A DNA stretch of 64,000 nucleotides from Rhabditophanes sp. KR3021 (Eukaryota > Nematoda > Chromadorea > Rhabditida > Alloionematidae), in assembly GCA_963281155.1 (NCBI GenBank), contig CAUJLY010000003.1, forward strand, positions 4,154,001 to 4,218,000. Direction: 5' to 3'. This document shows positions 16-61,608 of this stretch, in pieces. The notes below the pieces were generated by a model that saw nothing but the letters and a program-made list of their open reading frames with translations, made no database searches and was not told the origin of the DNA. The translations under genes and the position numbers were made by a program. Every line of letters starts with the position of its first letter. Position 1 is the stretch's first letter.

Positions 16-2402
16 TTAAGTTATCAAACTATTTAAATATTGCAAAGCTCCCTTCGGTTCATCCTTGTACATTAATAAATAGCCTTGAATTTGGGCAGGT
101 GAAACATTGTTTTTGAATTTCATAACTATTTCAACAAAAGCACTAGTATCTTCTGGCGTAGCTAATTCTCCATAAAATCTTTCGAACAATGTTTTGACCA
201 TCAAAGGTGTGCAATAACCAAGATATTCTTTGCAATCAACGCGTCCTGGTCTAATTAAAGCTGGGTCAAGTCTGTCCAAATGATTTGTTGTCATAAATAG
301 TATTCTTTCCTCAGCACAAGCAACTCCGTCAATGGCATTTAATAAACCGGAAAATGTGACTCTGAAACATGAAATATTACACTAAAAACGTAATTGGTAG
401 TCTACCTTGTCATTCCATCATAAGCTCTGTGATTATTCATTGGATCATCCCTAGTTTGAAAAGCAGCATCGACATCTTCCAACAAAATGATACTATTTGG
501 AGGAGGTGTGTTTAATAAATGATTTAATCTGTCATCGTCCAAGGTTCTTTCACTTAATGATAGCATGCATATACTATATCCAAAATGGCCTGCTAATGCA
601 CTGATAAAACTACTTTTGCCTGTTCCGGGGAGATTAATAATTAATTAATGTTATGAATATAATGCATGTTGTGTTTTAAAGAGATATTGGAAAGTGTTTT
701 TAGAGCAAATTGCTTCTTCATTTTAAATTATCTCAACTCAATTTTATCGTTATGGACAAACACAAATTAGAGAAAGCGACAGTTCAGGAATACCAAGGAA
801 AAGGGTGTTCCAAACACGAATGATTCAAGCAAGAGTTTGCCTCTGAAAGGATGTCATGCAATTGAGCCAGAAGTAGATGCAGAAGGTAAGTATCAACTGT
901 CAATCATAATCAATCAATTTAGCAGGTGCCGAACAGCTCAGCCAATCTTTTGCAAAGGTATCCACGAATTAACTTGGAAGGGAAAAAGACGAGGTACAAC
1001 TAGATTTGGTAATTGACGATTTTAAAGCTTAAAGAAAGCTGCATCTAGGAAAACATGCACAGAAAAGCAGTCGTTCTATGTCTTGCTAGACCTTCCAAAA
1101 GGGATTGACGTTAAATTGTTAACTGTCGAACAACTTGTGGAAGCCATCTTCTATTGCGGTGTCTCCAATGTTTTGAAAACGAGATTTAATAAGCACATAG
1201 CAGCAACTCAACGCTTTTCTCAAGATTCATCCCTTTGAATGCAAAAGAGACCAAGATTATGAATATTTTACATGGTAAAAGACAATTGGCGGCTATGTAT
1301 CTTGACAACTTATCTAGCAACGAAGCATTCGCCTATGAATATGCTGTAATTCTCGGTCTACAAGATACTATTACAAACATCGATGCCTCTGGACAAACCA
1401 ATCAGGTGATGTATAAGAAACATCCCACTACCATCGAGAGAATCTCTCACATTGTTTTCGAAAAATTGACTTATCTCAAAAACACATCATCTAAACAATG
1501 TTCGACCTAATTTTATCCTTTTTTAACAAATTTTTGATTGCTTTTTGATTGAATACCTGACCCAGGAGGTCCATGCAGGAGATATCCTCTGCGATATGGG
1601 ACACCTCTATCGGAATACCATTTAGCTGATTTGATGAACTCTTCGCAGTCATTATGAATTTTCTGGGATAACCCATTTTCAAGAACAACCGATTCCAATA
1701 ATCTCTTTCTCCTGGCTGGCCCAAACTTTCTCCAATCTGGTCCAACGGCATTATAAACAACAAGTCCTGTTTCTCTCTTTGACAGAGCATCTTTAGTAGC
1801 GGATGCTAGAAAATCTTTCCAAAAAGTAACATTTCCTCCGAATGTGGTTAGCGTTACTGTTTCCAAGGCTGTTCTTCGGTTATTTGATTGAGAAATAACT
1901 TGATCCTGCCTTTGACGGTCAACTTGAATCCAACGATACTTATGCGTAAAATAATGTATCCCGTGTCCAGGCAAAAAATAAAAGTCTGTAGAAGTCCTTC
2001 CACTTTCGCCTTGGCTGACAATACTATTCACGCTAACGTTTCGAGTTTTACTGGAGCTTTGCTTATTAATATAGTCCAATACCCACGAATAAGCTCTAAA
2101 ATAAAGTCATTCACTAGGAAAGGATAATTAACATACGGATCTTCATTATTTAACTGCAGAGATGTCATAAAACGTCTTCTAAATAGAGCATTTCCTATTA
2201 TCATGAATCTTCGTCCTAAGGTAGCCGCAAATCCAAGACCTGCTAACCCTGCTCCGGCAGAAAAGAACTGATTGGATGTTAAAGATGAGATAGTTTCAGA
2301 TATAAAACCTTTATCATTCTGAACTAGTTCTTTAGATATATCGACCAACTCAGGACTTTTGTCTGCAGACGGTTTAGACATAGCTTTAGTTAGAAAATCC
2401 AT
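16..2402 (-). CDS. BCS1L: Mitochondrial AAA chaperone BCS1
   Basis: Inner-membrane AAA ATPase that inserts the Rieske Fe-S protein into respiratory complex III. Exons (on the minus strand): 2402-2137, 2095-1557, 619-406, 361-16; they sum to 454 codons plus stop, close to the family length. The N-terminus has the hydrophobic segment of the family, then the BCS1_N region ([27 protein letters not shown]), Walker A GPPGSGKSSF split across the exon 2/3 junction, Walker [11 protein letters not shown], and the second region of homology [14 protein letters not shown]. Two introns are 41-44 nt, but the one splitting Walker A (620-1556) is 937 nt and carries a plus-strand element (copy A). Splicing CAG|GTATTC to AACAG|GC restores the P-loop in frame, so the gene looks intact. 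Certain by family resemblance; expression not testable here. Confidence 0.95.
620..1556 (+). mobile_element. Antisense intronic element copy A (GIY-YIG type) in BCS1 intron
   Basis: Gene-like degenerate sequence on the plus strand, opposite to BCS1. It begins near an ATG at 752 ([18 protein letters not shown]), has an apparent own intron GTAAG...TTTAG (about 882-924), then [48 protein letters not shown] and a basic tail ending at a stop at 1507-1509. Frame breaks and stops occur at about 831, 970 and 1030, so it is not intact. The last part is closely similar to copy C inside VPS51 and to copies B and D. The strand pattern (FYV...IFYCGVS...R...E...TN..G) fits a LEM-3/ANKLE1-like GIY-YIG nuclease. 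Its 3' end abuts an AG|GT junction 50 nt inside the host 5' splice site. Confidence 0.75.
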
Positions 2403-2649
2403 CTCTCAGCATAAATTGTACATTTAAAATATTAAACTTTATAAGAGGAAATTATGCTCCAATTCATTCGTTGTAAGGTTACAATTTGAAAGTCAAACAA
2501 TGAAAATAATTAAACTTGACAAAGTATTAAGAACAAATTGGACAATTTTGAAAATTGCAAGTTTAAGGAGAAAATTACTTTATTTATTTAATTATGTATA
2601 CTAATTTGTTGTAAATTTTTTTCAGTTATCATTATTTATACTACTTAGT

Positions 2650-3565: not shown

Positions 3566-4062
3566 CGATAAGGTAGCTAGCAAACTAGTCCTATTTTATT
3601 CACACATATTGTTTTTTATTGTCACAAAATTACAACCCAATCTTTGCTAAAAATTTGAAAGTTATTAAAGTTTGAAGAAGATTACACAACTGCTTATCAT
3701 TTATATTCTTGATTAAAATATGGCGATGTAAACAATACAACAATTTTGTAGACATTGCATTTATCACATGTCATAGTATAACAGCATACATATAAGTACA
3801 GTGAGTATAATAAGTATGTGTGTAACATTTAAAAAAGGATATTTGATGGGAAAGGTGATTGTAACCTGTTATGGGAATATTAATTTATTGATTATGCTGC
3901 ATTATCTTAAATCAACCTTCAATTAATCAGTAAAGTTAAAAGTCTCATACAACTTTTCAAGTAAAAGAGACAACAGTTGATAACTATTAGACAGCTGACG
4001 ACACTTCTCCAAAGTTGTGGAGTATTAAATAGCTTCTTATTACATTTTATTACCAACTTTAG
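3566..4062. other. AT-rich upstream region of ABCB7
   Basis: About 500 nt without a supported gene. The last bases before the ABCB7 ATG are AACTTTAG, so the start codon may lie directly behind a splice acceptor (5' UTR intron or spliced-leader site). No promoter element is recognised with confidence. Confidence 0.5.
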
Positions 4063-6531: not shown

Positions 6532-6704
6532 AACATGCCTTCATAAATATCATAGTTGCCTTAAACCATTATTAAGTTTTAAGAAGTTTATTACTACAAT
6601 CCTTATCTAATTAGTCTGTCTGATACTTGGTTAAAACCATGATTATACTTCTATTATTTGTTAATTATACTTGAATTAATGTGTAAAATATTTAGCTACT
6701 TAAT

Positions 6705-7793
6705 ATGGCTGGTTGCTTAGATAGTGTAAACATAAATTTGGACTTAGATCTTGGAGAAAAAAGAAATACTATTGCCAGCATTACAAGTGGAATATTTTTT
6801 ACTGTGGGCTGGTGGATTTACATAGATGCCGCATTAGTATATTCTAAAGATGGGCAATGGAGTAATTCTTACATTATAGTTTCCATTTTCGCGACTATTG
6901 CGATGTTTATGTAAGTAAAAATAGAGTATGATACAATTAAATCATGCTTATAGGGTAAACGCTGTTTCAAATAGCCAAGAAGCAATGGAGGAAGGAATAC
7001 TCGGAACCAAAGGTTCTCGCTTCTGGCTTTTGATTGCCTTCATTTTGTCTTTTGCATCAATTATTGCATCTGTATGGATCATGTTTGCTGATTATGTCCT
7101 TGTTGGGGGCCAGCATCCAGTTTACCCAGGTGCTTATATCCCTTTAATGACCTTATCTAATGTTATTTTAATTTTAGGTAATAATCTAAAACAATCAAGA
7201 GCAATCAAATTAAAACGTTTATTAAAAATGGGGAAGATATTAAAAGCTGACAGCATATTATTCAGTACTAGTCTTTAACTTTTCATACATGTTACTGAAA
7301 AGAATATTTTCAATTTTCTTTACAACTGCAAGGTGTTTCTTGTACATGACACTATTGGATTGACCAGAGGAGTCAGTATTTGTCAAGACTTTGTGACGAC
7401 CCATAATAACTGAGTATTCCAGAGCAAGTGCTTCGATTGAAGGTAGACCACCAATATGAACACCATTTTCTTACTCTCATACTGTAAACTCTTTATGATT
7501 AATGACTACTTGGCATTCAAAGGAATGAATCGAGAATAGTGACGTCTAGCATTCCTTATATGAGCATCGAATCTCTTCTCGACATTTGCAGAAACACCAC
7601 AGTAGAAAATTAGTTTTATAAATTGGTCAAAGGTTAAAGTTTAGCATCCATATAAATAAATATATTTAAAATCAAAAACAACCACATTTAATCTTTATTA
7701 TCTCTAGGCGTTGCTCTTTTTCTCAATGTTTTTCTGATTTTTCTCGGATCGTTTGTCTACAAATTTGGAAGAGCCGAAGAATACTGGGGTTAA
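6705..7793 (+). CDS. TMEM50: TMEM50-family small membrane protein
   Basis: Four-helix membrane protein related to TMEM50A/B, endomembrane proteins of poorly defined role. Exons: 6705-6910, 6954-7129, 7708-7793; 155 codons plus stop, almost the human length. Diagnostic stretches are GEKRNTIASITSG, GWWIYIDAALVY, INAVSN-like VNAVSNSQ, and the last exon FLGSVYKFGRAEE-like end (VYKFGRAEEYWG). The short exon upstream reads on past 7129 into an open stretch ending at 7278, but human alignment and phase place the donor after VYPG (CCAG|GTGCTT). The last intron (7130-7707) contains antisense element copy B and an AG|GT junction at 7177/7178. ATTTAG 12 nt before the ATG could be a trans-splice acceptor. 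Confidence 0.92.
7178..7707 (-). mobile_element. Antisense intronic element copy B (GIY-YIG type) in TMEM50 intron
   Basis: On the minus strand, reading from about 7625 to 7270, two frames give [26 protein letters not shown], then EALALEYSVIMGRHKVLT, TNTDSSGQSNSVMYKKH. They line up with copy A ([39 protein letters not shown]). At least one stop and one frameshift separate them. A minus-strand AATAAA lies about 40 nt before the end, which is GT on the host strand directly after TTTTAG (7172-7177). Only the nuclease-like C-terminal part is present, so the copy is 5'-truncated. The remaining 80 nt up to the host acceptor are AT-rich. Confidence 0.7.
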
Positions 7794-22901: not shown

Positions 22902-25900
22902 ATGCTGAGATCATCGTCAACTAAAAGCAATCACAGCACTGGTTCGGGAAATGCACATATTCACAAAACAGGCGAGGAAATGAAGAAAGGAGCTGAGAAA
23001 CTACGTAGACTCGCATCCCGAAACTCCATTGACTTTTCAAATCACGATAATGTAAGTTAGCCCCTGCAAAATATTATCTTTTGGATTATTTTTTTCTATT
23101 GTAACGGTATCTGTTTCTTTACTTTCCTAATTAAGATCATATGCTTATTCTATATTTATTCTAATTATAATTTATTAGTTTACTGTTTGTTAAGATGACA
23201 GAAATGATTCATCAAAACTACCTACTCATGAAGTCTAAAAATACAAAAAGTATATTTCTTAACAAGTTGCAAAATATTTTTTAGTACTTTTATATTTTTA
23301 ACACAACTTTTGCATAAACAGCACATTTGATTAAATATTTTTTGATGAAAAGTTTATAGTTCGCAAGTCAAAAGATTGTTTACAATGTTGCCAAAAAGAC
23401 TGTCTTTAGGAAATATGATCTTTTAAAAAATTTAAAATAAATCAAGTGCAAAGAAGTTTCTACGCCCTTGTATTCGGGGTATAAAGGCGTGTATTAGGGA
23501 CTGCTTAACTCATTTTCGAATCAAAATATTTTTGACTGTTTCATCTATACTTAAGAAGTCCATATTAACTTTTTAAAAAGTGCTAGTATATAACATAATT
23601 GGTACTATTTTTAGCAAAACACTAATTTTGTAGATTAATTTAGCGGAAGTAAATTAATATGGTTTTTTTCGTTGATCAAAAAGTATTGCCTACGTTAGGC
23701 TATAAAATTAGGTCTAAGAAAAGTGGTAAATTACAAAAGAAAGAAGTTGATTCTAAGGTTATTGAAATAATCATTAAATTCTAACTATTGCTTACTACAT
23801 TATTTTAGATTCGCGATATTTGCCAAAAATTAATCTTATCAGACAGTGATTGCCGTGAGTTGATGAAACGAATGAATGATTGCTTCGACAAGGGACTGCA
23901 TCCAGATACAGGTAGCTTTGAAACGTTCTAGATGTTTCCACGATTGGCATTGATATCTTTGTATAAACAAACAATTTTCAAATAGTCTGTTTAAGCACAA
24001 AATGATACCAACTGTCACCAAAATGTTTCAACCAAGATCTAATTACATCTTTTAAATTGTTCTTTTCCAGCCAAAAATGCAGCCGTCAAAATGTTACCAT
24101 CATATGTGAGAGCCGTCTCTAATGGAACCGAGCGTGGTGATTTTCTGGCACTTGACTTAGGCGGTACAAATTTTAGAGTATTACTCATTACACTCGATGG
24201 AAAAGAAAACCCGATGCATTCTAAAATTTTCAGAGTGCCTGACTCACTTATGAAGGTAATATCACCTTCTTGATCTTAATTAACTTTCTTTTTATTTTAG
24301 GGTAAGCATAAAACACAAGAAAAGAGACTTTATTGATTAAAAATAGAAGAGGGATTAATGATTTAAAACATATTCAATGGGTGTGCATACAGAAAAGTCT
24401 TTTAGAATCAATTTGGCGACCTGACTATTCTTGTACCATGATAATTTTCATCTTTAAAAAAATGTTCAATTAGCCATTTAAGTTGCATGTGACTTGGTCT
24501 ACATCCAGAATTCCCGTTAAATCCATCAATTCAAGGCCAGAAGGGATGCTCAGAATTTCATTGACCATTTTGATAAGATCAATCTTAGCTTGAGTGATGG
24601 ATGTTCTATCTTAAGCTGGGCTTGAATAGGAAAAACAAAACATCTCATTGATTTCAATAGGGCAAAGAAAGAATCTTTAAATTCTGGGACAATCAAATTA
24701 TTCAACCGTATTGTAATTTGATTCTCGATAATTAGGCATTACCTTCTGGACCCGAACACATAATAACCTAGGTCAATGGAGCTCAGATAACCTGTTAATT
24801 TAACTGACTTATCAGTTTTTGTTTGAGGAGATTGCTAAGTGCTTGGTAAAGTTGTTTTAATAGAAAATAATGCATTTTTTCATACAACATTGTTAACGAA
24901 TCATTGAATTGAAAAGGCCGTTCCTTCTTTAATCTTGGTGTGTTGCGAGAAACTTTCTTTTTTAAACTTGTTAGTATCATCGGAATTCATCCTAAGATAG
25001 ACTGGAGCCCTGCTAGAAGCATTGTTTTTTTCAGAGACTTTGGCGAAGATTGAGAAAACCTTTTTGGGTACTTGAGCAACTGCATCGCCTAAAATAAGTA
25101 CGATACAATATTAAGGACTGAAACTAACCAGAATGTACTCTTTACTAATTCTACTAGACTATCTACATCTCCTTTAGAAATAGTTGGCACCTTTCTTTTC
25201 TTGTCTCTTCTTTTCATCTTTCTACTGTCTTCCATCCTTAGAATAATAAGCACCTATTTGAGGCGATCTTGAAGCACTAAAATGCAAAAAACATATATTA
25301 TTAACCTAAATACCAAATAATTTATACTATGTCTATTGTTCCAGGGACCGGTGAAGCCTTGTTTGACCATATTGCTCAATGTCTAGCCAGTTTTATGGAA
25401 AAACACCATTTAAAAGATAGAGAAAAGTTGCCTTTAGGATTTACATTTTCTTTTCCATGCACACAAGAAGGATTGACTTGTGCAAGACTAGTCAATTGGA
25501 CAAAGGGATTCAGGGCAAGCGGAGTCGAAGGAAAAGATGTAGTTTCTTTGCTGAGAGAAGCTTGTCAAAGGCGCGGAGATATTGACATTGACGTTGTTGC
25601 TGTTCTCAACGATACAACTGGTACAATGATGGCTTGTGCTTTCCAAGAAAATACTTGTAATATCGGAGTAATTGTTGGGACTGGGTCAAATGCTTGTTAC
25701 ATGGAGAAAATTAGCAAAATTTATAAAATTGATGGGGAAATTGACCCAGCTTCCGATGGACAGCCTGATGAAATGTGTGTAAACACTGAATGGGGTGGTT
25801 TTGGAGACGACGGTTCGATGGATTTTATACGCACCGTGTTTGATGAAACCGTTGATAAAGGAAGTATTAACCAAGGAAAGCAATTGTTTGAAAAAATGAT

Positions 25901-29904: not shown

Positions 29905-29914
29905 TCAAGAATTG
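29850..29914. repeat. 18-bp tandem repeat overlapping the ORC5 stop codon
   Basis: About three and a half copies of a unit like TCAAGAATATTCATTTAA. The array begins in the 3' flank and runs into the last codons of ORC5 (stop at 29905-29907), so it contributes to the terminal residues. Confidence 0.7.
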
Positions 29915-42800: not shown

Positions 42801-45800
42801 AAGGCAATCATACCGCATTCAATTAAGATACAGTCAAACGCAATGCCAACAACCTGAAATCGTTAAAGGGTTGCCGGTTCATACAGCAATTCACATTAAC
42901 GATTGCGGCATCTTCCTTGGCGCCAAGTATGGTTTTAACGAAATGAATGAAATCGGACTACTGTTTTTTGTTATACTCATTTTCACTTGCTTCCTATCTC
43001 TAATTATTTTAGTTTGCTATTATAACAGAGATGCGCGCCACAAAGGAACCTATCTAACAAAAGAAGGAACTCATTCTATTTTAAGTAGGTCTGTAAATTC
43101 TACAATTATGACCAGAACTCCTACACCCGAAAAAGGAAGTTACAAAGGATTTGAGAATATGCTGATTCCGCCGCCACCACCACCTCCCGGAAGTATTTAT
43201 ATGCAAGGATATTAATGTATCTATATTAAAAAACGCCAAATGTAAAAATAGAGTTAGCTTTGTTGAAAGCTATTATAATAAACTAATCCGTTGAATTTCG
43301 TTTAGCTTTCCCGTTCTCATTTTTTGTAAATATGCCACCATTTAAAAAGATAAATAAATTATTTTAAAAAAGCCTTGATTGATATGTATCTATTTCATTA
43401 TAAAAGTCATTGATGCAAGCTGTTGTATTTGCATAGAATATTATGGTGTTGTACTTTGGATATAAATCTAAGATGAGTTTATCTTGCTCAAACAAAAGAT
43501 GTAATCGTAACCCAGCTACAATGCCCTTGAGACAATCTAACGATTCATACACCATTACACCATTTTTGACAAAATATTTTGAGCCATAACCGAATTAAAT
43601 TTTCAAAGTTGACAAAGCCATATAAAATTGAGCTTTCTTTGAACGTTTCTTTTTAATCATTTAAGAACATATTTAAAGGAAAGCTTAGAAATTTGAACCC
43701 CGTGGATAAAAATAAATATCAAGTTCTCAAATTATGCAAACTAAACTCATTGAAGTTCAATATAATGTATACTAAACTGATTATTGTATCAAATCATATA
43801 AATTTAACTCATTATCGTATAACATCACACAAAATGAACTCATTATCGTATAATATCATACAAATAACCCATTATTGCATAATATCCTACTCATCATTTT
43901 ATCACAAAATTGGTATTACTAGATATTTTAAAATTATCATATTTTAATTTAACTTACGAGTCCCATAGAAAAGTAATTAAAGAAATAATCTGACTGATGT
44001 TCTTCAGCATTCAATACTTCTTTGTATGCGGTGCCTCTCTGAATCAACATCTTATCTTCTGATTTGTGGTATATTTTAGCAGGTGATCCCAAGGCGGCAG
44101 TAACATCGTTTTCAGAATCTCCGAACCTAATTTCAACATGATAAGTTTTGGTGCTTAATTCGTTAGATCTGGATTCGGAAGTATCATCCACATTTTCACA
44201 TGTGTAAATGACTTTTATTCCAGCCACAGCTTCATCCTCCATAATTCCTTCAATTAAGCTAGCTTGCAAAGTTCCACATAAGATGTAAGATGGAGCAACA
44301 GGAATTTGAGCTTCTTCCAAACTTTTTCCCGCAAATATGGATACATTTTCGAGGCGAGGATTTTCTTCGGCCGAAATGTTTAAAGATCCTAACCCGTTTT
44401 GATAGGAGTTATGGGAAGGAGCAGAATTTTTGCTATAAAATAAAGCTGAAATGCCTAACCAATCTAGTCTGAAAGTCTTGGCAAATTCATCATACTGGAA
44501 AAAGGTTGGTTAAATAATGTATTAAATTTTTGAAAAACGTTATAACAAAGATTTCTTTTTAAAAGAACATTTTTTAATTATGAACATAGTATTAATTATG
44601 TTTAAATTTGTCTGTGTTTTCAATGTATTTATGTTGTTATTTAATTTGCAACGTTTACTAATTTATTGTTTCTTTATTTTAGTTGAACACTCACCCAAAC
44701 TGGGAGTTAAGCTATGAAGGAAAATAAGGACAAGGAATGTCTAAGAAAAAAGAATGGGTCAATATTTGAGAGGTATTATCAATGCTTAGGAAGTTGATAA
44801 TTGGATGACAAGATCCACTATTTCTGCATTTTATAAACCTAAGTTCAGTTGCTAGAAGTGCCATTTGAAATTTAGCACTGAATTGCCATTCGAATCTCAT
44901 TTTGATGCAAAGAAATGCCCCGAAGAAATCCATTGCACACATTGCAAGTTGGTATTGGGTAATGATGGTCATTTAGCTCAGCACTTTCAATTACGTGTTT
45001 GTGAAGAAATATGCATTGCACAAACAAAGTATGATGAAAATTTCAATGCTCAAGATTGTTTGGACAGAATTTGGCCAGACTGGAGAACCTCATCAAATCA
45101 AAACAAAGCCTATCTTCGCTTTCTACTTGATCCAAGAAAGGGTGATAATGTTATCATCATCGAAGAAGCCTCTGAAAAAAATGTACTTCATGACGGTGAG
45201 CCTAAAAGAGATGATAGAATCAGCCATCACTTCAGCAACTTCAATCTTACTCTAAAGAATGGTGATTTGTTTAACAAAAAGGAATCTAGAATGTATCAGA
45301 TCAAAAACCATCCGACGGACACTCTCCACCTCAAGTTTCCAGTTCCCACCAAAGGATTGGCTGAAAATTTAGAACTTATCTTCGTGGAAAGATTCAAGAG
45401 ACAGAGCATCAATTGCGATGATGGGAAATGGAGTTTGCCTGAAGTTTATCTCCTGAACCATGTAAATGCATGTGCTGCTGCTGACATCTTAAGCAAAATG
45501 ATGTTCGAGCTTAAAATTATTTGTGATGATTAGTTTTAATATTTGTTCCCTTTTTTAATTTTAATAAATTCTTGATTTGGCTTACTTTGGCAGGATGTGT
45601 TGGGCCGAGTCTCTTTTGCAACTCATCAATTGTAGCAGTCTCATTTGGCTGACTGACGACTGATCCTTTATATAGAAGTGTGACCTTTGAAGGTGCGTAA
45701 ATTTCGATCAACTTTAAAACTTGGCTTTTACTATCGAAAATCAATTTGATTCCATCATCTTTAAGAATAATGTTGAAATCAGTTGAAAGAGGATCTTTAG

Positions 45801-46736: not shown

Positions 46737-49629
46737 ATGGAATGTCAAGATGTAAAACCTAACATTCATGTTAGCAATGCGTCTAATATTGAAGATCGTC
46801 TCAGTGAAAGATCCTCTTCTTGTAAGAACTAACTCTAAATTAACTCTAACTAATTTTTTTTTATTTTAGGTAAGTACTGGAGACAATTGTTTTGGGTCAA
46901 ACATTAAAAAGTTTATTACAACAAAAATAAACATCAAAAATGAAAGAGATAACAACTATAATAGTCAAAAAAATTGTTTACCAATTTATCTTAAATTAAC
47001 ACGATTATTAGCATTCAAAAAGTCTTGAAAGATTAGCTCAGCAACCTCGTCGTTTCTTTCAGGGAACATCTGGTAAACAATTTCAAGATAAGCATTGCCA
47101 GAGTCACCGTTGGTATTCTCATCTCTGAAGTAGTCGGTCGAGATCGCTTCAACATTGTCAGCAAGTTCTAAGGTGCATATGACTTATACAGGACAATCAT
47201 TTCTTGATTTGAATCAAATACTTTTTCCATGGCTTCTTCCTTGTCAGTAAGCACTTTATCCAATTCAACTGACTTGTTGTAGCCAAACATGTAATCGACC
47301 ATCATCGCAGTAATAGGTTTGTAGTCTTGCCTACATATAGTGCATGTTTCTTTGCATCTCAGCAGATAGAAGTTCAGATTGAGTAATGTCTGGATTGATC
47401 ATGATGTAAACGCCACATTCTCTTTTACCCACATTCAAGACATCCAGTTCATTCTTAAGGACTCAGCATCTCTATTAACGTTGAATATCTTTGCTGCCGA
47501 AAGAAGGCCTGCGCAATTTCTATATCTTAAGTGAATATTGAGTTTACCTTCAGACGAAAGATATACTTTACAACAATGACATTGATAGTCCGTTTCTTCA
47601 GTACAATAGTCACCATAATAATCAACGGAAGTAGGAATTGCAATTTCTTCTTTGCCATCTCTATCAATAATAAGCTGCATAAAGTACTTGCCCGATTCCT
47701 TAATAGCTTGAATGGGAACAAATTAAGAACGTCGCCAGAGACTGTTCCTACAGACAAATTGGTTGCATGCTTTGTGCCAGCAATTAGACAACGCTCCATA
47801 ATAAAGGCCATTCTCTGAGACACTCCATCCAAATAGAAACAGTCACAACTCCCTTCTTGCTGTTCCAGTCCCTCCACATTCTTGCGATTTTTTGGATTGC
47901 TTGAAGTTTCTAGTTTTGGCATTGGAAGCTTGATCTTTGTGCAGAAGAAATCTGACATCCTTGTCATTGGCCATTCTATAATTTTGTACAACAAAATCTT
48001 CATCAAAAAATATTGAGAGGAGATCAGATAATTGGCGATCATGACTGTTTAGTTGTTTCATGAAATCTGCCTCATAGCTTTTCATTTCTTCTTTTGAGTC
48101 TAATGAAGTAACTTCGATCATTTTCAGAACACAGTTTTGTTTGGTAGCGTCCTTGATATCTCCAACAATAATAGTAGATAATTTCGGCCAGTTAATGGTA
48201 GAATTATGGATCTAATCAAACACTTATTAAAAAATATAAAAGTGGTAACCCCAAACAAACAAATTATTTTAATACCAACCCTGATAACAATCCCCTTCCA
48301 GGTACGGCAATAACTGACGAAGTTAGGTTTAGTATTATTGAGGCTATTCAGTGCAGACCATCCATTTGGGATTCTTCTAGCAAAGAAGCCCGAAGTCACC
48401 TAACCAGAAAGGACAATTTCATAGAAGTAGCAGCACATTTGAGTAATCTTGGCCACCATTTGACGACAGTGGATGTAGAAAAGCAGTGGAAAAATTTAAA
48501 GGTAAGTTACAGCAATCAGCTTATTATAAATTTGGGATCAGGAACATGTTTTCATATTTTGCAACTTTTACATTCTTTTTGATGGTCAAAATGTGATAAA
48601 GTTCTTTTCCATAGCATTTGTGTGGCTATTTAATGCATATAAGTAATTAGAAAATCACTAACGGATAACTATGTGCCAAGAGTAAAAGTTTATTTCTTCG
48701 TTTAAATATTTTTTGTGATTTAAGCTTTATGAAATTAGTCGCATCCTGTAGACCTAGAGAATAGCTACAATTCAGGCTAATAAACTTAAACAATTGTCAT
48801 TTAGATTTTTTGACTTTAAACATGAAAATACATAACTTCAGTTTCGCAATTTAATTAGTGCGGAGTTAATTAGTGCGGAGTTAATTTGTTTATGCCCTAC
48901 TTATTGTATTCTAATTTCAACCAATTTTAGGACACATATTCGAAAGTAAAAAAGAAAATTCAATCAGATCAGCATGGTATCATGATTCCTCCAAAGTGGA
49001 GGTTTTTCAATGCAATGCTGTTCCTAGACACTGCAGATAGTTATCAAAGTCAACAACAACAAATGAATACAATTATCATGAATACAACAGATTCGAGGAA
49101 ACGCCGTCATACGATGGGCAGTCCGCATGTTCTTAAAATCAAAAATGAAACTGGAATATCAAAGGAAATGTTCAATCCTATAAATTGTTCTGATATGGAT
49201 CTTCAATCACTTTCACACGATGATCCAAACGTTGCATCTAGCTCATCGCCCCAATCATTACGCTGTCAAATGCCAATTTCTGCAACTATATACAAAACAC
49301 ATAATGACAATTCTCATCAAAGCCAACAAAACTCTTCAAATCAGTCAGGTGTACATCAACAAATGTATTATCATAACATAGCCGTAGTGGATGATGAATA
49401 TACGGCATTTTGCAAAAGTCTAATCTTTTCATTGCGTGAAATTGGATCTACTAATCGACTCCAATTTTTGAAATTACAGAAGTCAATTGTAAGTTGTGGT
49501 TGTGTCTATTTAAATTATATTTATCTTTTCTAGCGACTTCTTTTTCTAATATTACTCATTTGCTTTTAGAGAGACTCAATTTACGAGGCGCAGCTCAATA
49601 CAATATTTCAATCAAATAAACACGAATGA
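46737..49629 (+). CDS. MADF-BESS domain DNA-binding regulator
   Basis: Exons: 46737-46821, 48302-48501, 48931-49488, 49570-49629; 300 codons plus stop. MADF domain (Myb/SANT-like in Adf-1): RFSIIEAIQCRPSIWDSS, NFIEVAAHL, VEKQWKNLKDTYSKVKKK, PKWRFFNAMLFL. The C-terminus has a BESS motif for protein contacts: EYTAFCKSLIFSLREIG, RLQFLKLQKSIRDSIYEAQ. The middle is Ser/Gln/Asn-rich with a basic patch SRKRRH (possible nuclear localisation). ATG 46737 is the first in frame after an upstream stop at 46659. The first intron (46822-48301) is 1.48 kb and holds antisense element F, with an AG|GTAAGT ratchet site at 46869/46870. Confidence 0.9.
46870..48301 (-). mobile_element. Antisense intronic element copy F (zinc-finger type) in the MADF gene
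   Basis: Minus-strand gene-like sequence. Start MIEVTSLDSKEEMKSYEADF at 48121, RQLSDLLSIFFDEDFVVQN, LEQQEGSCDCFYLDGV, SQRMAFIMERCLIAG, RDGKEEIAIPTSVDYYGDYC, then a finger with exactly the spacing C-x2-C-x12-H-x5-C (47581-47513, CHCCKVYL...NIHLRYRNC). Downstream come RECGVYIMINPD and the terminal SGNAYLEIVYQMFPERNDEV and AELIFQDF. At least two frameshifts and several stops. AATAAA on the minus strand about 45 nt before the end at the AG|GTAAGT junction. Confidence 0.75.
48840..48895. repeat. Short direct repeat GTGCGGAGTTAATT
   Basis: The unit TTAGTGCGGAGTTAATT occurs twice in tandem near 48855-48890, inside the second MADF intron. No further structure seen. Confidence 0.5.
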
Positions 49630-50478: not shown

Positions 50479-53400
50479 ATGACTGACAAGAATCCATTAA
50501 GTCTAGGATCTTCTAACTTCGATGTCGACGCTTACATGTCCGAGTTGTTGAAACGAAAAGGCCTGGATGAATTGATTGCTCTAGATGAACAAATGATTTT
50601 TTCAGTAAGTCTATTTTTGCATATTTAGTTTGATGTGAGTAATTTTAGGTAAGGAAACTGGACTGTGAGATGCAACAGTTGGTGTATGAAAATTACAACA
50701 AGTTTTTGACTGCTGTTGGAACAGTAAAGCTGATGAAAAAGGAGTTTTCATCAATAGATGAGCAAATGGCTTCTTTGTCAAGTTCAATTTCAAATATCTC
50801 AAAAAGTACTAAACACTTGTGTAATGTATTTGGGAGTCATCGTGAATCTGTTCGACAATTGACAGAACAAAATAAAACAGTTAAGTCGCTGCAATGTATT
50901 TTCACACTACCAAATATGCTGCAGAAGTTAATTGATGCAAAAGAATACACGGAGGTTCGTTCCATTTATCTAAAGAAAACTTATCAAAAGTAGCATTTAT
51001 TAGCAAAATAGAGAGATGTCAGATAAACTTGGGCAAAAAATATGATTAAAAACTAGTAGTAATAACATCCTTGAGTACAAACACTGTTCAATCAAAAGTT
51101 GACCAATCAATTTAGCATTATCAGGAGAGAGCATGTAGACTTCCTCGGTTGTGCATTTGCCATTGTCGGCGTTCTTAACTTACTTGCCAAAGTACTCCGT
51201 TAGAATGTACTCAATAGCATAAGAAATTAATCTTGATATACAAAGCACGGTCACTCCATATTTCGAATACAATTTTTTCACGCAGGTTGCGACTACTTTG
51301 AGGTTAGTAAATCTTTTGCTAAAGTCATGTTCAATATCCCAATATTAGCACTTAATACATTTGCGATGGTGTTTACTTTGAATAATTCGTTGCATTTGGT
51401 AAGGCTTTGAAAAGATATGGTAGTTCTGGAAGTTCCTCCTTGTCATTAATAACTTTTCTGAGACATAAATTACTGCAATTTGTTTGTCTTCATCAAAATT
51501 ATCCGGAATTTCAAAGTAATCGACGAGTCTCCTAATTTTGTTTGACTCTTTCTTAAATTTTGCTTGAGCAACCCAATTTAACCATACGCTTTGGATGGTA
51601 GCTTTAACAATATTCAAATGAAAACCTAGGTAAAACTTTATCATGTTTTAATCTATTCCCAATCTACAAGTAACGTAATAACTGTGCATTATTTCAGGCA
51701 GTGAATAAGTACTTGTCGGTTAAAGAAAAACTAGAAAATTTCAAAGAACATAAAAGCATAATCAAGATATTTGATGAGACGAATGGATGTGTTCACGAAC
51801 TAGAAGAACTGCTGAAAGCAAAGTTAATGAGTAGAGTGATTAGTGAAGAAGAGTTTGTAGAAGTTGCCAAATTGCTTGAAAAACTAGGGGTTAATACACT
51901 ATTGTTTAGCAATGACATCTTCAAAGTTTACAAGGAAAGACTATTAAGTGAGTTGGGAAATCTCGAAGCTCAAGTAAACTCAAACACAGTCTACTTTGAT
52001 GTCCTTGAATTCGTGGATGAAAATGGAGTTTGCTCAATTTTAAATTCTCTATCAACAATGAAAACGTTATTCTCACAATTATTCAGAAATAACGAAGGCC
52101 ACGTCATTGAATTTGCAGATGAGGTTATGAATCGTTTAATGGAAACAGTGCTTCAAAAATTTTTACTAGAAAAAGAAACAAATGACTCAGTAATATTGGT
52201 ACGAGCTCTTGATCGAGTTTATAGGTATATTTATTTAACATAATTTAACTTAATTTGATTTAATTTGATTTTAGGTGTGTTTAAAGAACAGTCAAAAAAT
52301 AACAGTTCATGAATATTAAAAGCGTTTATTAAAAGAGACAAAAATATTAAATGAGGCAGAATATTATTTAGAAGTATTCTTTAAAGAAGAATATATCCTG
52401 TCTAGAGCGATCTCTGAGATTCTTTTTATAGTTTCTGGATGTTTCTTAAACATGCCATCATTTGATTGACGGATGCGTAGATGTTGCTTAAAACAGCTTG
52501 AGGGTCCATTGTGGTAACATACTCAAAAGCGAGTGCTTCATTTCCAGTCAAATCATCAGATTAGAAAGACACAAGTTGTCTCTCATTTTTCAAAATATCC
52601 ATAATTCTTGCTTCTTTGTCATTTAAGGAGATGAATCTTTTAAGGTTTGGCTTCTAAAATATGGTTACGAAGTCTAATTTCTATCATGTCTGAGACACCA
52701 CCATAGAAAATGCTATTTTTTAGAGTAGAGCAATAAATACCATGGTCTTTTAAAAATAATTAGAAGAAATTTATATTAAATATGATTTGGTAACATTAAT
52801 CAACAATTATAGGAGATTGTTGCAACTATCCTCTCCACCAGTATCATTGTCATATACTCCTTTGATAAATTCGGTAATTGAGCAAGTTGCAATAAACCAA
52901 ATTGAAATTAATCGCACTTATTTGTGTGAATCCTTTGATAAAAGTCTTCTCGAAATGCGCAATGACTTGACTTACCTTTCAAACGTGTCTGATTATCCCA
53001 ACATTTTGAATCACTGGGAATCCAATTTTTTAATGACCGTCAAAAATATCCTAGCCAATTTATCTTTATTCGTGTCGTCGGATATAACATTTATCTCAGC
53101 TAGAGAAAATAATCCCACCAATAATCGTCTGTTATCAAATTTCGGTAGTCAAGTTAAGGACAAAGTGCTGATAATGTATATCGATGAATTGTGCGCATTA
53201 GTGAACAATTACTTGTGTGGGAAAGACGAAAAAGTGTCAAATGTGTCACCAGTTTTTTATATTCTATTTGCAAAGTTTCTATTGAATTTGAAGGAGAAAC
53301 ATTTGGATTACTTATTAGACATTTGTTACGACTTGTTTAGATTTGAAGACAAAGATAAATGTACGATGATTGAAAGAAAGCGAATTGAGATTTTAATTCA

Positions 53401-54366: not shown

Positions 54367-57300
54367 TTATTGGCATTCGGGTAAACAAGAAGAAGCGCAG
54401 AGCTGTCTGACTTTTGGACGAGTTTCGCAGAGCCCGTGAATTTGATAAAACAAGCAGTAGCTAGTGTAGTCTTTGCAGTGGCTAGGACGGATCTTGTGAA
54501 TATATTTTGATGGAACAGTGACTGGAGGAAGGACTGTTACTTTGTGAAAACGTGTTTGCCGGGTTCTTGGAGCTCTTGTACGTTGAGTGGTAGTTGGGGT
54601 TGTAGCAACTTCGGTCGTGATAGCCTCAGTTGTAGCTTCAGTTATAGTGGGTTCAGTTATTTTTTGTGTCACTAATTCTGCCGTTGATTCAACAATTTTT
54701 GGAGCTTCGGTTTGTGATGAAACTTTTTCTTTATTTTCGATTAAAATAATGTTCTCAACAATTTCCTTATCTGTGACTGGAGCACTGGTAACTTTTTCGG
54801 ATGTTGTTTCTCCAGTTGTCGTTTCTTCAACATTTGTTGTCGTCTTGTCAATTTTGGTTGTCACTTCATCTATTTTTGTTGTAACTTCTTCAACTTTTGT
54901 TGTCGTTTCTTCAATTTTTTTAGTTGAAGTAATCTCAGGGGTGGTCGATTTAACTTCATCGGTTGTTGAAAATACAGGGGTTGTCGTTTTAATTTCCTCA
55001 GTTGTGGCAATTTCAGGGTTAGTCGATTTAACTTTCTCGGTCGTTGAAATTTCAGGAGTAGTTACTTTAACTTCTTCGGTCGTTGAAATTTCAGGAGTAG
55101 TTACTTTAACTTCTTCGGTTGTTGAAATTTCAGGAGTAGTTACTTTAACTTCCTTGGTCGTTGAAATTTCAGGAGTAGTTAGCCTAACTTCGCTGGTTGC
55201 TGAAACTTCTGATGATTTAACTCCTACAGTTGTGGTGGTTTCTTCGATAGTTGTTTTTGGTTCCTCGGTAATAATTTCAACCTGGCTGGTCGTAGTTGTG
55301 ATTTTTTCACCAGTCGTAACAGATTTTTCAGTAGTAGGTTCAACATTCTTTTCAGTAATCGTAGTTTCAACAATCTGTTCAGTAGTTGTTATTTCAACTT
55401 CTTTTTCAGTGGTTGGTGGCTCAGTGATAGTTTTTGTCATCTTCTTAACTTCCTCAGTTGTGCTTGGAGCAATTGTTGTAGTTGTCTTTCTTACTTTTGA
55501 TTTTCCGTTAATCTTCTCAAATTTAGGGATGATATTCTTTTCTCTTGGTCTTACAACAATAGTTGGCTCTGTCTTGCTTTCAATTTTTGTGATAGCCTCA
55601 GATGTCGTTTCAATTTTAACTTCGTCAGTTGGTGCAGTACTTGTTTCGGCTTCCTTAACGGTTGTCTTGATATCCTCTATGGTTGTTGCTTCAATTAAAT
55701 TTTCAGTTGTAGTGTCAACGAAGTTGGTCGTTTTAACATCTTCAACTTCAGATACTGATTTAGTAGCAATAATTTCTTCGGTTACCGGTTCAGTAGTAAT
55801 AATGTCAGTTGTAGAGATAATTTCTTCTGTTGTAAGTGGTTTTTCGGTTGTCGTCCGTTTCTTAGTGGGTTTGACAATACATTTAGTGTCCTTTGGAGTT
55901 CCAAATTGGCCAATTAATTCGTCTGTAATGACTTTCATTGCTTCGAAAGTTTCTTCGCCTGTTTCGACGATTTCCGTTTCGGGCAACAAGAATCCATTAC
56001 CCATCATTGAGTTTTTCGGTCTTAATTCAATCAGGAATGAATAAGGGATCTTCAAGACACCTTTAGCATAATCAACAGAACTTCCACTTGCTTCGTACAA
56101 TAGATCGGCTATAATTTAACATAAAATTCACTAATTTATTCATTTCAACTTACCTCCTGTTCCTACAGCATATTTGGTGCCATGCAGATTATAAATAGCC
56201 TTTGTGGCTTTCATTGCAAGAGGTCTGAGATTGGTGGCATAATCTTGTGGATAAGAACGTCTTCTATGAGAATATGGAATAAGCCATAGTTGAGAGTATG
56301 AGTGAAGTGAAACAAATGCTTTCATTGGGGTTTTCTCTAAAAATTCCTTAACACTGCGTGTTTCAGGTTCGGAGAATGCGGATGAACCATGGTACGTTTC
56401 ATGGCAAAGATCAGAAGAAGATCCTGAAATATAAAAATTAGCTTCGATGATACATTAAACTAATGTTTTAGTATATTTTAGAATTAACGGTATATCAGTT
56501 TCATCTTTTCGGAAGCATAACATTAAAATTTACATCCTTTATTAGCCACGTTTTTGCTTTTTGTCATCATTTACAAATAATCACGTAATTAGTCTCATAT
56601 ATCTTAGTGCTTAATTTTTTACTAATTATCTCTTTGTTTAAATTGCTCATTCTGGGTCTGCCTAAACTAAATGAAAAATTTGAAGAACGAAAACAAGATC
56701 AGTTTGGTTGAATTGTCATACAAAGCTGTTGGTGCGGAGTCTGTTATTGAGGAATCACTTTCTGTTGGAAAAAAGACGTGCCCATAGAGGCAGATAAAGG
56801 TAAGCATTCTTATTTTATAAATGATGTAATAATTTGAACTTAGGAAATCTTTTTGAAGAGTGTCACTGATTTCTTCAAACCAGTAGAGAAAGTTGGTATA
56901 GTACAGTTATCTGATGAACAAAAAGCTAATTTGAGACGTTCTCAAGTAAAGCCATTCTTGGATGAAATAGAAGGAGGGTTTGTACAAAGTTTGATGAAGA
57001 AGTCTTCAAAAAGAAGTTCGTTAACGTTGATTGGGCAAGGGGAAAAGAGGCATCTTTTGCTGGAATTTATCTACTCTGACTTATGAACTGACTCTTCCTA
57101 GGATAAAGCAACATCTAAAAGGTACTATCAAGCTTTTATCGGAGTGTTGGAAGTATCGGATTTGATAGTCCTGAGTTTACTCCTTTGTTCTTTGGGTATT
57201 CCAGCGACAGTATCCTTAGCAATTACAAGAGGGAATATAAAATAATTGTTACTAATCCATTCTCTAAATTCATATTTCATCTATCTTCTTTGCCCACCAA

Positions 57301-60300
57301 CCCGCAATTCGAAAGAGAGTTTATCGAAAAGTTGGATGACAGGGAATTGTACATCCCGCTGAAACAACGTTAAGTCTGGAAAGAATCATCCTAGCTGCTT
57401 TTCCAAGTTCATTGAATCTACTAACTAAACCTGAAATATTGGTGAGTGCGCTGACGTTGGAGATTATGAAAACAGTCAGTCGGATAGTGATGATGAGGAA
57501 AGTGACTCCCAATTGCAAAAAGCCGCTTACTAGATATTCTTTGTCATCCCACATTCAATTCCGTTCATACTAACAGCCACGTGACGCCCAACACAAATCC
57601 AACACCGATCTTGATGCTGAGGTCGTCATATCTGCAATTTGGCTTGGTTGGAGGAATGCAGTACTCGATAATGCCCTCTACGTTCTTTGCGACTCAAGTA
57701 ATGAAAATAGAATTATGCATAACTTCGAAGCCCCCTTAAGAAGGTTATTCTACATCGGCGAGTCAAAAAGAGATAATGATCACATCAAGAGGTTTGGTAG
57801 GAAGATACTAAAAGAACAACTTTTTGATCGCAAGGAACTAAGAATGAGTCAAGTTGATGCCAACAATATTATGACGTACAAGCTCCTAGTACCATCAAAG
57901 GAAGTCGCTAAGAATCTGGAGTACATCTTTTCTCACAAGTTTAAGCGACAGTACACAATTATGATCACGGGAATTATACATTCCATGAAATTGATCTACT
58001 CAACTCTGTGAACGTGTGTAAAATAGTTGACATCTTGGCTAAAATTCTCTTTGACCCCAAACTTATTATATAATTATCTTAAATTATCTTGTCTAATAAA
58101 AATGTTTACCAGTGCTTGCCCAAAACCAATCGAAATTGCGGTTAAGATCCACTCCAGCACAACAAATAGTATGGAAATAATTCTTTTTGCAAATTGCAGG
58201 TGATCTGTTTCTACGCCAAAGACGGTTCTAAAAAATAACTATATATTACATCGATTTACGTTAAAACTTACTGAGGTGTGGGAAAAAGCATAACCATCCT
58301 AAAATAATAAAAAGTAAATGAATAAAAATAATCAAGTATTTCACTTACTGGATTCATAACTGGCAAAATGTAGAAATCAACATTATCTAAATAGTTCTGA
58401 ATAACTGCATCAGACTTGTATCCTTTGACAAGTTTGTCAATCATGATAAGCGCTGAAATGTACCGATTAAAATAGCTTTTTGTGGGTGAATTTAAAATTT
58501 ATTTAATTTAACTCGAAGCAAGTAATTTGATATACCTATTTATGTTGTGAATACATATTGTGGCTTGAATATAAGGCTTATTACATTTCAATTAACCCTC
58601 TTTTGAAACTATTTAAGAAGTTCCAAAATGTTTATTTGATTATTTGATGCTTTGAAATTGAATCGAACCAACGTATGGACTTAGATACCTCATTTGTATC
58701 TTTATTATTAGATGTGTAATCTGTATCTTTTGTGAATTGCTTTTTTATTTTGTCAAGAAGTATTTTATGCATAATTTACATATTAGAGTCATATATAGAA
58801 ACAGGTTTCCGAAAATCGAGTCTTCTATGGCTGTCTAATGGCATTAGATATTTTTTAATTCACAATAGTAAATGCAAGATAAGAAAAAAAGGCAATATCA
58901 TTATGAAGAAAATCCACAGAAAACGCTAACTCAGATGTAACCCCAAGCCTAATACATACTATCAACAACCGTTTGTCAAGATGATACAACCGAGGGTAAG
59001 TATTATCAAACGATCAAGCCAACCAATCAAATTTTAGATGATGCCAATGTTTTAAGCCAGCAATTGTCTAGCGTCTCGACAGAAGAATTTAAAGTGCTCT
59101 AAGTGATGAGATACGAAATTTTGCTGAAATATTAGCAAATTATTATAATTTGTTCGAAGTTATCACTGATGCCAACATTCCATTGCTAATTTATCAAGAA
59201 TACTTTTTGGCAAAGAACATGAACTTAAGGAGTTTAATGGAAATACCCATGGTAAAATCACCTATAACACAAGAAGGTTAATTACAAGACTGTTGAACAT
59301 ACTTTTCTCGCAGTCAAGTTTGTGTGAAATGGTTATTACTATTCTTGAACAATTAAATGCTAACTTGCTAAAGTTGATTACATCGAACATAGCCGCTTTT
59401 GTGGTCAAGGCCTGTTTCTAAGGATAACGGGCTTCATAAAGTTTTTAATACGATGAGAGATGGCATATGTTAATTCACCACAAGAAGGTGTTCAACTTCA
59501 AAAGCAGTGTAAAAAGAGATATCAAAAACTCACTGATGACGAATTATGGAAGCATCTGGTGAAGAAACTAAAGAAAGCAGTTGATTGCAAATTATTCAAG
59601 GAAAAGCACTAAACCTGCGTCTAATTGGATGTTCCTGCTGGTATTGAATAAACAATATCTCATTAAATTAAAGAACAAATTTTTTATGTAGGAGTGTCCG
59701 ATGTGATGAAATTAGGATAACGGGAACATGCATGTTTCATTCCGTTAGACTCAAAGGAAAAAGATATAGAGCTATTGGATTAGAGTATACTATAATGCCT
59801 GAAATATGATATGTGCTAATTAATGTAACCGATTCAGGACAATCAAATTACGTATTTGAGACATCCTGACACTTTCAAAAGAATCAGTGAGTTTGCTCGT
59901 AAACGAATTTTCCACAACATTTTTTCTAATGTAATATATTTAGGATATTGTATTTAAATTTACCTGTTGCTGGGGATATCCACTCCCTGGCATGTATGGA
60001 TCCATCTATCCTAAAATTCAAGAGTTAAGATCATAAGTTAGAAAAGTTACCAAAATCCAATTTTTTTGCATCCGTATGGCTTCCTGGCACCAATTTTCAC
60101 AACAGTTAAACTTCTGTTTTCGTGAGTTTTGCCGATATCAATTAAAGTGATTAGTGAAGGATTTTCCATTTCGAGTTTTTGAAGATAATTTTCAATTCGT
60201 TCAATGGTATTATATTTATCGAATCTAAAGGCACTACTATCTCTCATCACACCACTTTCATTGGTGATATTTGAATTCCGTTCTCCTAAAATAGATTGTT

Positions 60301-61608
60301 GGAGATCGTCAATGGCAACCGTGTAATCTAATTGTTTTGAATCCATGTCTCTGGCAAATATTTTGGCGTCTTCGGGATTCACAGTAACATCGACAAGCCC
60401 TGCAATATCATTTACAAATAAGGATAAATTAAAAGTTTTAAACAGACTGCATACTAACAGTCGTTTTAAGTTTCAATTAGTTGATGTTTGGGAGAAGTGT
60501 ATGGTTGATTATCACAAACGATCAAATGTGTATAATTAATGATCCTGCTATGTGTCTGTTTGACAAAGATTCCATTCTAATTCTGGGTGAATACATGTCA
60601 AGAGAATTGAAGAGAAGGGTAAACTTGGTCGATTTGAAGAAACAGATACCTCGACTATTTATGACAACAATAACGTATCTGGAGAATTTCAATGTACACT
60701 ATGTAAATCTCGTTTTACGCTGGTTAGAAATTTCAACCGTCACTTAAAAGAAAGGAGATGCCTTGAATTAGTAAACAAAGGCATTGGATTCAACACAGAC
60801 ATCACTCCTGCTGCTATTAAGAAAGATTTAGATGAAATGAAAGCTGTAAAGATGATAAAGAATATTGGGTATACTTATCCTTTAATCCTACAATGCTTGG
60901 GTCAAAATAGAATTTCCCAGAAGCATTGGGAGCTCTTTTTGTATTGGTGAAACCTTCTATATAGAAGTAATTATAAATTCAATCGTGAATGGAGCTACAC
61001 ATTCACTGATAAGGAAAAGTCTTCCATAAGATTGTTGAAGCTGGCAGGAAATTAACCATTATTAAGAAACTCTGCCCTTCAAAAACATTGCCGAGAACGT
61101 TGAATGCATTCTCACTGATCATCTTGGACGTTAACTCACAAACACGGATTCTAGCAAGTATTCACTTCCTTGCACAATTCACATGTATCTAGAGCCTAAT
61201 AGCGCTGTCGCAGAGTTAGTTTTAAAAGATTTTAATATTTGTGAACCTTTAGAGTATGTTTTAAAGCGTTAAACCATTTTTGTTGTTGTTAATAAATTAA
61301 TTATCTTTTACTTACCCCCAATATGTGTTGGTGCTTGCCAAAAATCGAGTTCGTAAGGGGAATCATGGGCGAATAAATCTTTTAAATATTCTAAATTTTC
61401 TTGGTTACGAGGATTTATGCGGTACAATTTATAGCTAAAAATAATATAGAACATTTATGGGTGAGATATTCCTTTTTACTCACTCTTTGTAGTCTTTAGG
61501 TGCAGTATCGTCTTGGAAACGTCTATTCAAACGAGGTTTAAGAGCATGGGCTTGGAAGAGTAAAAAATAAATTGATAAAAATGCTAAGGCAATGTTTGAA
61601 CAAACCAT
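54367..61608 (-). CDS. Secreted M14A metallocarboxypeptidase with mucin-like linker and ShKT domain
   Basis: Exons (minus): 61608-61484, 61434-61316, 60399-60051, 60010-59964, 58452-58349, 58298-58272, 58227-58110, 56423-56154, 56108-54367; total 966 codons plus stop. Signal peptide MVCSNIALAFLSIYFLLFQA, M14 propeptide (YKLYRINPRNQENLEYL...DFWQAP), then the catalytic domain: zinc ligands in SIHAREW and LHSYSQL, substrate Arg in DLNRNFDWFW, SETYHG-like DLCHETYHG and catalytic Glu in FLIELRP. After that about 400 residues of Thr/Glu/Val mucin-like sequence and a six-Cys ShKT domain (HCKDYTSYC...CLPEC). Similar to nematode cuticle carboxypeptidases with ShKT. Three introns (1686, 1511 and 916 nt) hold antisense elements G, D and H; the others are 40-50 nt. 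Confidence 0.93.
54930..55200 (-). repeat. 39-bp tandem repeat coding a 13-residue mucin-like unit
   Basis: In the last carboxypeptidase exon, about seven units of STTEEVKVTTPEI follow each other, three of them nearly identical at DNA level. The flanks are looser TTxE repeats. Such Thr-rich arrays are typical of O-glycosylated linkers. The opposite strand is open by chance for 485 codons. Confidence 0.9.
56424..58109 (+). mobile_element. Antisense intronic element copy G (zinc-finger type) in carboxypeptidase
   Basis: Plus strand, opposite to the host. Start near 56671 (MKNLKNENKISLVELSYKA), own intron GTAAGC...CTTAG (about 56799-56843), then FLKSVTDFFKPVEKVGIVQL, VKPFLDEIEGGFVQSLMKK. Decayed middle, then ENRIMHNFEAPLRRLFYI, GESKRDNDHIKRFGRK, LFDRKELRMSQVDANN, VAKNLEYIFSHKFKRQ, and LLNSVNVCKIVDILAKILF after a frameshift. 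The second half aligns block by block with copy E. AATAAA at 58095-58100, directly before the host donor (GTAAAC read on the minus strand at 58109). No intact finger found in the decayed middle. Confidence 0.75.
58453..59963 (+). mobile_element. Antisense intronic element copy D (GIY-YIG type) in carboxypeptidase
   Basis: Plus strand, opposite to the host. An own intron (GTAAGTATT...TTTTAG, about 58995-59036) precedes ANVLSQQLSSVSTEEF, as the intron of copy A precedes [13 protein letters not shown]. Then EIRNFAEILANYYNLFEVI, NILFSQSSLCEMVITILEQL, KCKKRYQKLTDDELWKHLVK-like text (MAYVNSPQEGVQLQKQCKKR at 59460), IFYVGVSDVMK, REHACFIPLDSKEKDIELL, LEYTIM and VTDSGQSN near 59680-59880. Many stops. 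It shows that the GIY-YIG type once encoded a much longer protein than copies A-C suggest. Confidence 0.65.
60400..61315 (+). mobile_element. Antisense intronic element copy H (zinc-finger type) in carboxypeptidase
   Basis: Plus strand, opposite to the host. Contains the third finger with identical spacing C-x2-C-x12-H-x5-C (60693-60761: CTLCKSRF...NRHLKERRC) followed by LELVNKGIGFNTDITPAA. It lines up with copy F (STYYDNNN/SVDYYGDY before the finger, FNTD/FNVNRD after it). Ends with VAELVLKDFNICEPLEYVL and stop, as copy I does, then AATAAA at 61291-61296, 19 nt before the host donor. Broken by stops in between. Confidence 0.72.

Follow-up and report, generated by a model that had tools for sequence, protein, structure and literature searches.

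We describe a family of intron-borne elements in Rhabditophanes sp. KR3021, a nematode in the family Alloionematidae, centred on a 64,000-nucleotide (nt) stretch of its genome (C3:4154001-4218000, the whole of which is called the window below) in an assembly of 44.8 Mb and six contigs. The family is real, intronic and antisense to its host genes. Each element probably spreads as one unit, a spliceosomal intron that carries an antisense gene for a zinc-finger plus GIY-YIG protein and moves by nuclease-driven homing. Many related copies, continuous host frames, splice signals in the conserved ends, predicted nuclease domains and the antisense orientation can be read directly from the DNA, whereas we infer mobility and expression.

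Eleven intervals in introns of seven genes

Inspection of the junctions in the window revealed GT and AG at the ends of all 11 intervals, which are introns, as the first-pass annotation had proposed. The hosts are seven distinct genes: BCS1, TMEM50/UPF0220, hexokinase (I and J), PHAF1, a MADF gene, a Sec5/Vps51-like gene (K and C) and an M14 carboxypeptidase gene (G, D and H). The bounds required correction in three cases: B, F and I truly start at 7130, 46822 and 24256, which is 45-48 nt upstream of the positions first given, because a short leader ending in TTTTAG is part of each of these introns. When the leader of B is removed, the host protein reads VYPG/VALFLNVF (here and below a slash marks a splice site or junction). 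A Pfam domain spans the splice junction of the joined host peptide in nine of the 11 intervals (A, B, J, E, K, H, D, G and I); at C and F the host reading frame is open across the junction, a domain span being established for neither.

Ten of the intervals are similar in translation to other genomic copies, and for these the blocks previously said to unite the family are indeed shared, the ties of D being thin (one locus in each of two patches, plus A and C). For J, no translated similarity to any other copy was found in the comparison with genomic loci and window copies. Likewise, the statement that all intervals are antisense stands for ten, in which the element strand is opposite to the host; in J no element sequence was found to orient, and its strand is as first given. 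The intervals are listed below; L numbers denote loci elsewhere in the genome, and A-, E- and H-type refer to subfamilies.

620..1556, + strand: element A, BCS1 intron (host -), at the Walker A motif GPPGSG/KSS; antisense LEM-3-like GIY-YIG pseudogene; without leader mini-intron.
7130..7707, - strand: element B, TMEM50/UPF0220 intron (host +); leader 7130-7177, then AG/GTAA; antisense A-type GIY-YIG remnant.
24256..25344, - strand: element I, hexokinase intron (host +); leader 24256-24300, G at 24301 as a predicted one-nucleotide exon, GTAAG at 24302; antisense content weakly similar to the H type.
26338..27222, - strand (as in the first-pass annotation): interval J, hexokinase intron (host +); candidate member.
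44495..45585, + strand: element E, PHAF1 intron (host -); antisense E-type open frame 44856-45530 of 225 amino acids (aa).
46822..48301, - strand: element F, MADF gene intron (host +); leader 46822-46869; antisense pieces akin to the 509-aa frame of L081.
50955..51697, - strand: element K, Sec5/Vps51-like intron (host +); antisense patch 51033-51179 resembling four other loci.
52225..52812, - strand: element C, intron of the same Sec5/Vps51-like gene as K (host +); leader 52225-52274; antisense A-type remnant.
56424..58109, + strand: element G, M14 carboxypeptidase intron (host -); antisense frame 57574-58008 with an LFYIGES block.
58453..59963, + strand: element D, M14 carboxypeptidase intron (host -); weak antisense A-type remnant.
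60400..61315, + strand: element H, M14 carboxypeptidase intron (host -); antisense zinc-finger-like and F/H-type blocks.

Elsewhere in the window, repeated segments are limited to three host-gene stretches with one matching locus each. No element was detected in the long introns 12547-13237 and 48502-48930; long introns are thus not all of this kind.

Orientation relative to the host genes

Loci of ~3.3 kb were taken for 85 genome matches, of which 73 were scored after removal of duplicates and window copies; they represent the best matches and not a random sample. A home-made gene finder, a lower-order model trained on the window and the fetched loci, compared three forced states for each element, namely, intron of an antisense host, intron of a sense host and intergenic sequence. 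Masking the match core alone left element exons that mimicked a sense host, and masking of inter-locus repeats, as used here, cured most of this. The antisense host was favoured over the sense host by more than 20 nats in 47 of the 73 loci and the reverse was never seen (0/73), whereas controls with resampled flanks gave 2.6 and 0.2, respectively, at the same margin (means of five rounds). The genome-wide check suggested by the first-pass annotation therefore bears out the antisense orientation and extends the family beyond the window. At a margin of 5 nats, 65 loci were antisense, two sense and six undecided, but this margin alone is too loose because the control reaches 25.4 and 16.4 there; the orientation argument rests on the strict 20-nat margin. 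Four of the 73 loci scored best otherwise, three as sense (L048, L071 and L073) and one, L049, as intergenic by 1.5 nats. The score for intron versus intergenic placement is weak, since random places in the window also favour an intron by more than 10 nats in 63% of cases.

As independent support for this orientation, thirty host peptides were joined on the antisense strand, 10 chosen as recognisable and then the first 20 remaining of sufficient length. A Pfam family was matched by 23 of them, and in 13 the domain reaches at least five residues to either side of the junction (8/10 among the recognisable hosts, 3/10 and 2/10 in the further sets). Hosts beyond the window include aconitase, eIF1A, a dynein motor gene, two kinases, an ERAP1-like gene, UNC-93, a Rel-domain protein and an inositol polyphosphate kinase.

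Element ends tend to coincide with splice sites

A blastn comparison covered the introns together with 200 nt of flanking exon at either end; for each, we recorded the furthest reach over many pairs and tallied the counts from lists. On the donor side, similarity between copies approaches the predicted site to 10 nt or less in 33 of 76 introns and overshoots it by more than 10 nt in two; for the predicted acceptor the corresponding counts are 23 and eight of 76. In our reading, such overruns partly coincide with second elements or host paralogues nearby. Among the domain-checked hosts, both ends lie within ~20 nt of the splice sites in L004, L034, L040, L054, L055, L075, A and E. The element ends conserve donor, branch-like and acceptor sequences, which lie on the strand opposite to the element gene, and it appears that the element tends to be the intron itself, splice sites included. 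Since the ends carry splice sites on one strand, only an antisense insertion could be spliced out; a reverse insertion would offer the host no splice sites at its ends, which would account for the antisense orientation.

Insertion into unrelated older introns is disfavoured, as copies tend to be alike up to the splice sites and no further. A group I or group II origin was likewise rejected, given that Rfam at the gathering cut-off matches only a transfer RNA in the window. The GT-AG junctions, host read-through and lack of a group I/II signature in Rfam are those of spliceosomal introns.

AATAAA on the element strand, previously reported close to the donor side in eight intervals, was recovered within 50 nt in 8/11. 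Across the 73 loci, it occurs within 100 nt of the donor side on the element strand in 49 and on the host strand in seven. Selection against sense copies through this poly(A) signal, the cause favoured earlier, may contribute to the orientation bias, but it is incomplete as an explanation, and the splice-site ends offer a simpler structural reason.

A leader mini-intron and a putative one-nucleotide exon

A-type copies carry a leader of ~45 nt that resembles a complete tiny intron and is followed directly by GTAAG or similar. The combination of leader, TTTTAG and donor is found in 24 of 29 A-type, 0 of 30 E-type and 1 of 14 H-type loci, and the leader measures 40-48 nt in 17 of the 24 A-type loci. 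Leaders are more alike between copies than are 139 ordinary small introns (0.58 vs 0.45 over positions -35 to -15). Between the AG of the leader and the next donor there are zero bases in 18 of 22 leader-bearing copies and a single G, in the form TTTTAG/G/GTAA, in the other four. Dropping this G breaks the host frame in I, L042 and L044, and keeping it leaves the frame open, the junctions then reading [16 protein letters not shown] in the hexokinase of I, LGAGGP/AWFLTSEL in the sugar transporter of L042 and NGPTT/GYCSSSEDE in L044. Moreover, Pfam Hexokinase_1 runs across the junction of I and Sugar_tr across that of L042. The need for the G in these three hosts favours two-step splicing and argues for leader and body being taken out as two separate introns where a leader is present.

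The antisense gene

The frame of L081 (L081:625-2151) spans 509 aa from stop to stop, no start codon being required, and exceeds the Pfam GIY-YIG cut-off (25.4 vs 22.6 bits). It also contains zinc-finger-like blocks and a second block that we read as GIY-YIG-like, and L081 is a candidate active copy. The frame of L040 (232 aa) exceeds the cut-off of Pfam LEM-3_GIY-YIG (28.2 vs 27), so that the Pfam domains of L081 and L040 mark the elements as coding for predicted endonucleases. The L040 frame matches a Rhabditophanes sp. KR3021 entry in UniRef at 100% along 98% of the query, and the protein search with it matched three Rhabditophanes proteins only. The same search with L081 had no match at an E value of 0.01, PDB sequence searches returned nothing better than 0.1 and one scan of viral contigs found no L081 relative. 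Pieces of E, F and H match L081, G matches E, and K matches four other loci; the window pieces of A and E fall below Pfam cut-offs or have no match. No reverse transcriptase domain was found in the eight frames scanned. Some element frames include short GT-AG stretches, suggesting that they may hold introns of their own.

Copies across the genome

The frame of E (E-type) has at least 155 genome matches, with 150 of 535 candidates scored, and the A piece (A-type) at least 150, with 150 of 424 scored; in both searches several rows may derive from one element. H yielded 16 matches, and K as a query matched only itself. Two or three elements occupy separate positions in one host at L050/L079, L025/L066 and L002/L010 and, in the window, at I/J, K/C and G/D/H. 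Such hosts include UDP-glucose dehydrogenase and the window genes, as well as what we take to be glycine dehydrogenase and a helicase. The carboxypeptidase gene model of the window extends at 54412-56108 into a long, threonine-rich repetitive tail.

Contig C6 (11.2 Mb) is apparently element-poor, with 6 of the ~300 E and A rows listed as compared with 17 of 122 RRM domain matches (Fisher p 4.6e-6, the total taken as 305 rows); our guess is that C6 is the X chromosome. Two pairs of near-equal matches on opposite strands of C2 (C2:2225037-2225327 with C2:2257357-2257647, and C2:4846713-4846934 with C2:4826228-4826449) are perhaps inverted segmental duplications.

Target sites and possible intron gain

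A, L040 and L043 occupy the same Walker A codon in different genes, GPPGSG/KSS in BCS1, GPSGSG/KSLL in a dynein motor gene and LLLLGAGES(G)/ in a third host, presumably a G-alpha gene (its 44-aa piece has no Pfam match). The pairs L040-L043, L040-A and L043-A rank 1, 3 and 4 in similarity among the 231 pairs of 22 copies. Targeted insertion, raised earlier as another cause of the bias, has some support from these three closely related copies at one coding motif, although the trend over the 22 copies is weak. At a target-site duplication score of 10, two of 70 junction pairs were found vs 0.4 expected, and single good in-register repeats are present at L040 and L052. Within this one genome, carboxypeptidase paralogues are uninterrupted across the site of G (four with open frames) and that of D (two).

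Proposed mechanism and alternatives

In the mechanism that we propose, the element ends would supply the donor and the branch/acceptor region on one strand, while the opposite strand would carry the zinc-finger plus GIY-YIG gene with its poly(A) signal. In leader copies, the host would excise the ~45-nt mini-intron and the remainder separately, with a zero- or one-nucleotide exon between them. A nuclease made from the antisense strand may cut element-free sites, and repair would copy the element into the cut site, that is, homing; the element could also escape to coding motifs resembling its home site, for example Walker A. The antisense orientation would then be a consequence of the design, since only this orientation presents splice sites to the host transcript. 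With rather less assurance, we lean towards a bolder picture, in which autonomous antisense homing introns have filled the genome of an animal. On their opposite strand they would encode the tandem GIY-YIG zinc-finger nuclease responsible for their spread, and many would bear a two-step splicing leader, in some cases with a one-nucleotide exon, through which insertion into exons does no harm; they could re-target conserved coding motifs (Walker A) and would act as a live source of intron gain.

Several observations count against the proposed mechanism. In 43 of the 76 introns no similarity comes within 10 nt of the predicted donor; the reach is the best over many pairs, and for loci outside the window the splice sites are those of a rough gene finder and may be wrong. 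The resampled-flank control itself tilts somewhat to antisense, perhaps through splice signals surviving at the mask edge, and the placement of L081 is weak (5.4 nats). Most copies contain stops or frameshifts. The E type is GIY-YIG by motif and sub-threshold Pfam similarity alone (L010: 19.6 vs 27), and structure predictions for E (predicted local distance difference test score, pLDDT, 37) and L081 (pLDDT 52) followed by a fold search gave nothing usable. Similarity predicts the target poorly when all 22 copies, from leader-bearing loci and the window, are taken together (Mantel rho 0.105, p 0.08). Target-site duplication is not a general feature, score 7 being reached by 14 of 70 junction pairs vs 14.0 expected. 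Finally, L055 is compatible with a zero- or a one-nucleotide exon, depending on the choice of donor.

The decay of many copies and the strong poly(A) asymmetry (49 vs 7 of 73) would also be expected if ordinary GIY-YIG transposons had entered pre-existing introns and selection had removed sense copies whose poly(A) or splice sites break the host message. We nevertheless regard this as unlikely, as similarity tends to end at the splice sites and not inside unrelated intron sequence, the leader and acceptor ends are conserved, and the paralogous sites at G and D are uninterrupted. Slightly less probable still is spread through RNA, in which the excised host-strand intron reverse-splices and is reverse-transcribed, with the antisense nuclease gene a passenger or mere helper. 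Such a route would fit the coincidence of ends with splice sites and the lack of general target-site duplication, and introns of the element strand would persist in host-strand RNA; yet no reverse transcriptase domain was found in the eight frames, and nuclease-like genes recur across subfamilies. That the copies are host genes from a domesticated, LEM-3/ANKLE1-like GIY-YIG family, nested in introns by chance, is very improbable: the A-type domain does match LEM-3_GIY-YIG, but the copies are very numerous, many have stops, and they occur several per host gene and in unrelated genes. Our preferred reading remains an introner-like spliceosomal intron that codes for a nuclease and, in copies with a leader, is probably removed in two steps.

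Relation to known systems

Penelope-like elements combine a reverse transcriptase with a GIY-YIG nuclease; the nematode elements share with them GIY-YIG in animal mobile DNA but differ in the lack of a reverse transcriptase domain in the frames scanned. Introners are sets of many similar introns in unrelated genes, their ends being splice sites. The nematode elements resemble them in that element ends lie near intron ends (33/76 donors and 23/76 acceptors within 10 nt), but they carry an antisense nuclease gene and show no overall excess of target-site duplication (70 junction pairs). LEM-3/ANKLE1-type nucleases (Pfam PF22945) are related through the A-type domain of L040, which is over the cut-off, whereas the elements are multi-copy, intron-borne and often decayed, with extra zinc-finger-like and GIY-YIG-like blocks.

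Fungal stwintrons reportedly have a short intron at the donor of a longer one, and similar copies propagate (PMC12403724). The arrangement is alike in 24 of 29 A-type loci, but the nematode form is AG/GTAAG or AG/G/GTAAG, is found on nuclease-coding elements and occurs in an animal. The suggestion that no family with this combination had been described needs qualification, as a near relative has been published: the mirusvirus shintrons (2025), which are described as spliceosomal homing introns encoding endonucleases, including GIY-YIG, without a group I/II signature (PMC12768974). Shintrons are viral, favour particular target genes and are concentrated in virion genes, and according to that paper endonucleases with spliceosomal introns had not been seen before them (PMC12768974). 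The nematode elements agree with shintrons in the spliceosomal intron with a GIY-YIG endonuclease, the absence of a group I/II signature and a possible target preference. They differ in residing in a nuclear genome, in many housekeeping genes, and in coding antisense, gene orientation in shintrons being unstated in the part covered. We recognised no comparable animal case among literature titles and the beginnings of abstracts, most subscription papers and preprints being outside the reach of the search. We read the nematode elements as a putative cellular, antisense-coding, introner-like version of shintrons.

The origin of new spliceosomal introns is a long-standing question. Here, one nematode apparently possesses a large intron set of single origin, with at least one uninterrupted nuclease frame of 509 aa, and a structural account of its antisense bias can be offered. 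If true, this would extend the shintron idea, known from viruses, to the nuclear genome of an animal, and Rhabditophanes sp. KR3021 would allow a direct test of intron gain through a nuclease-carrying element.

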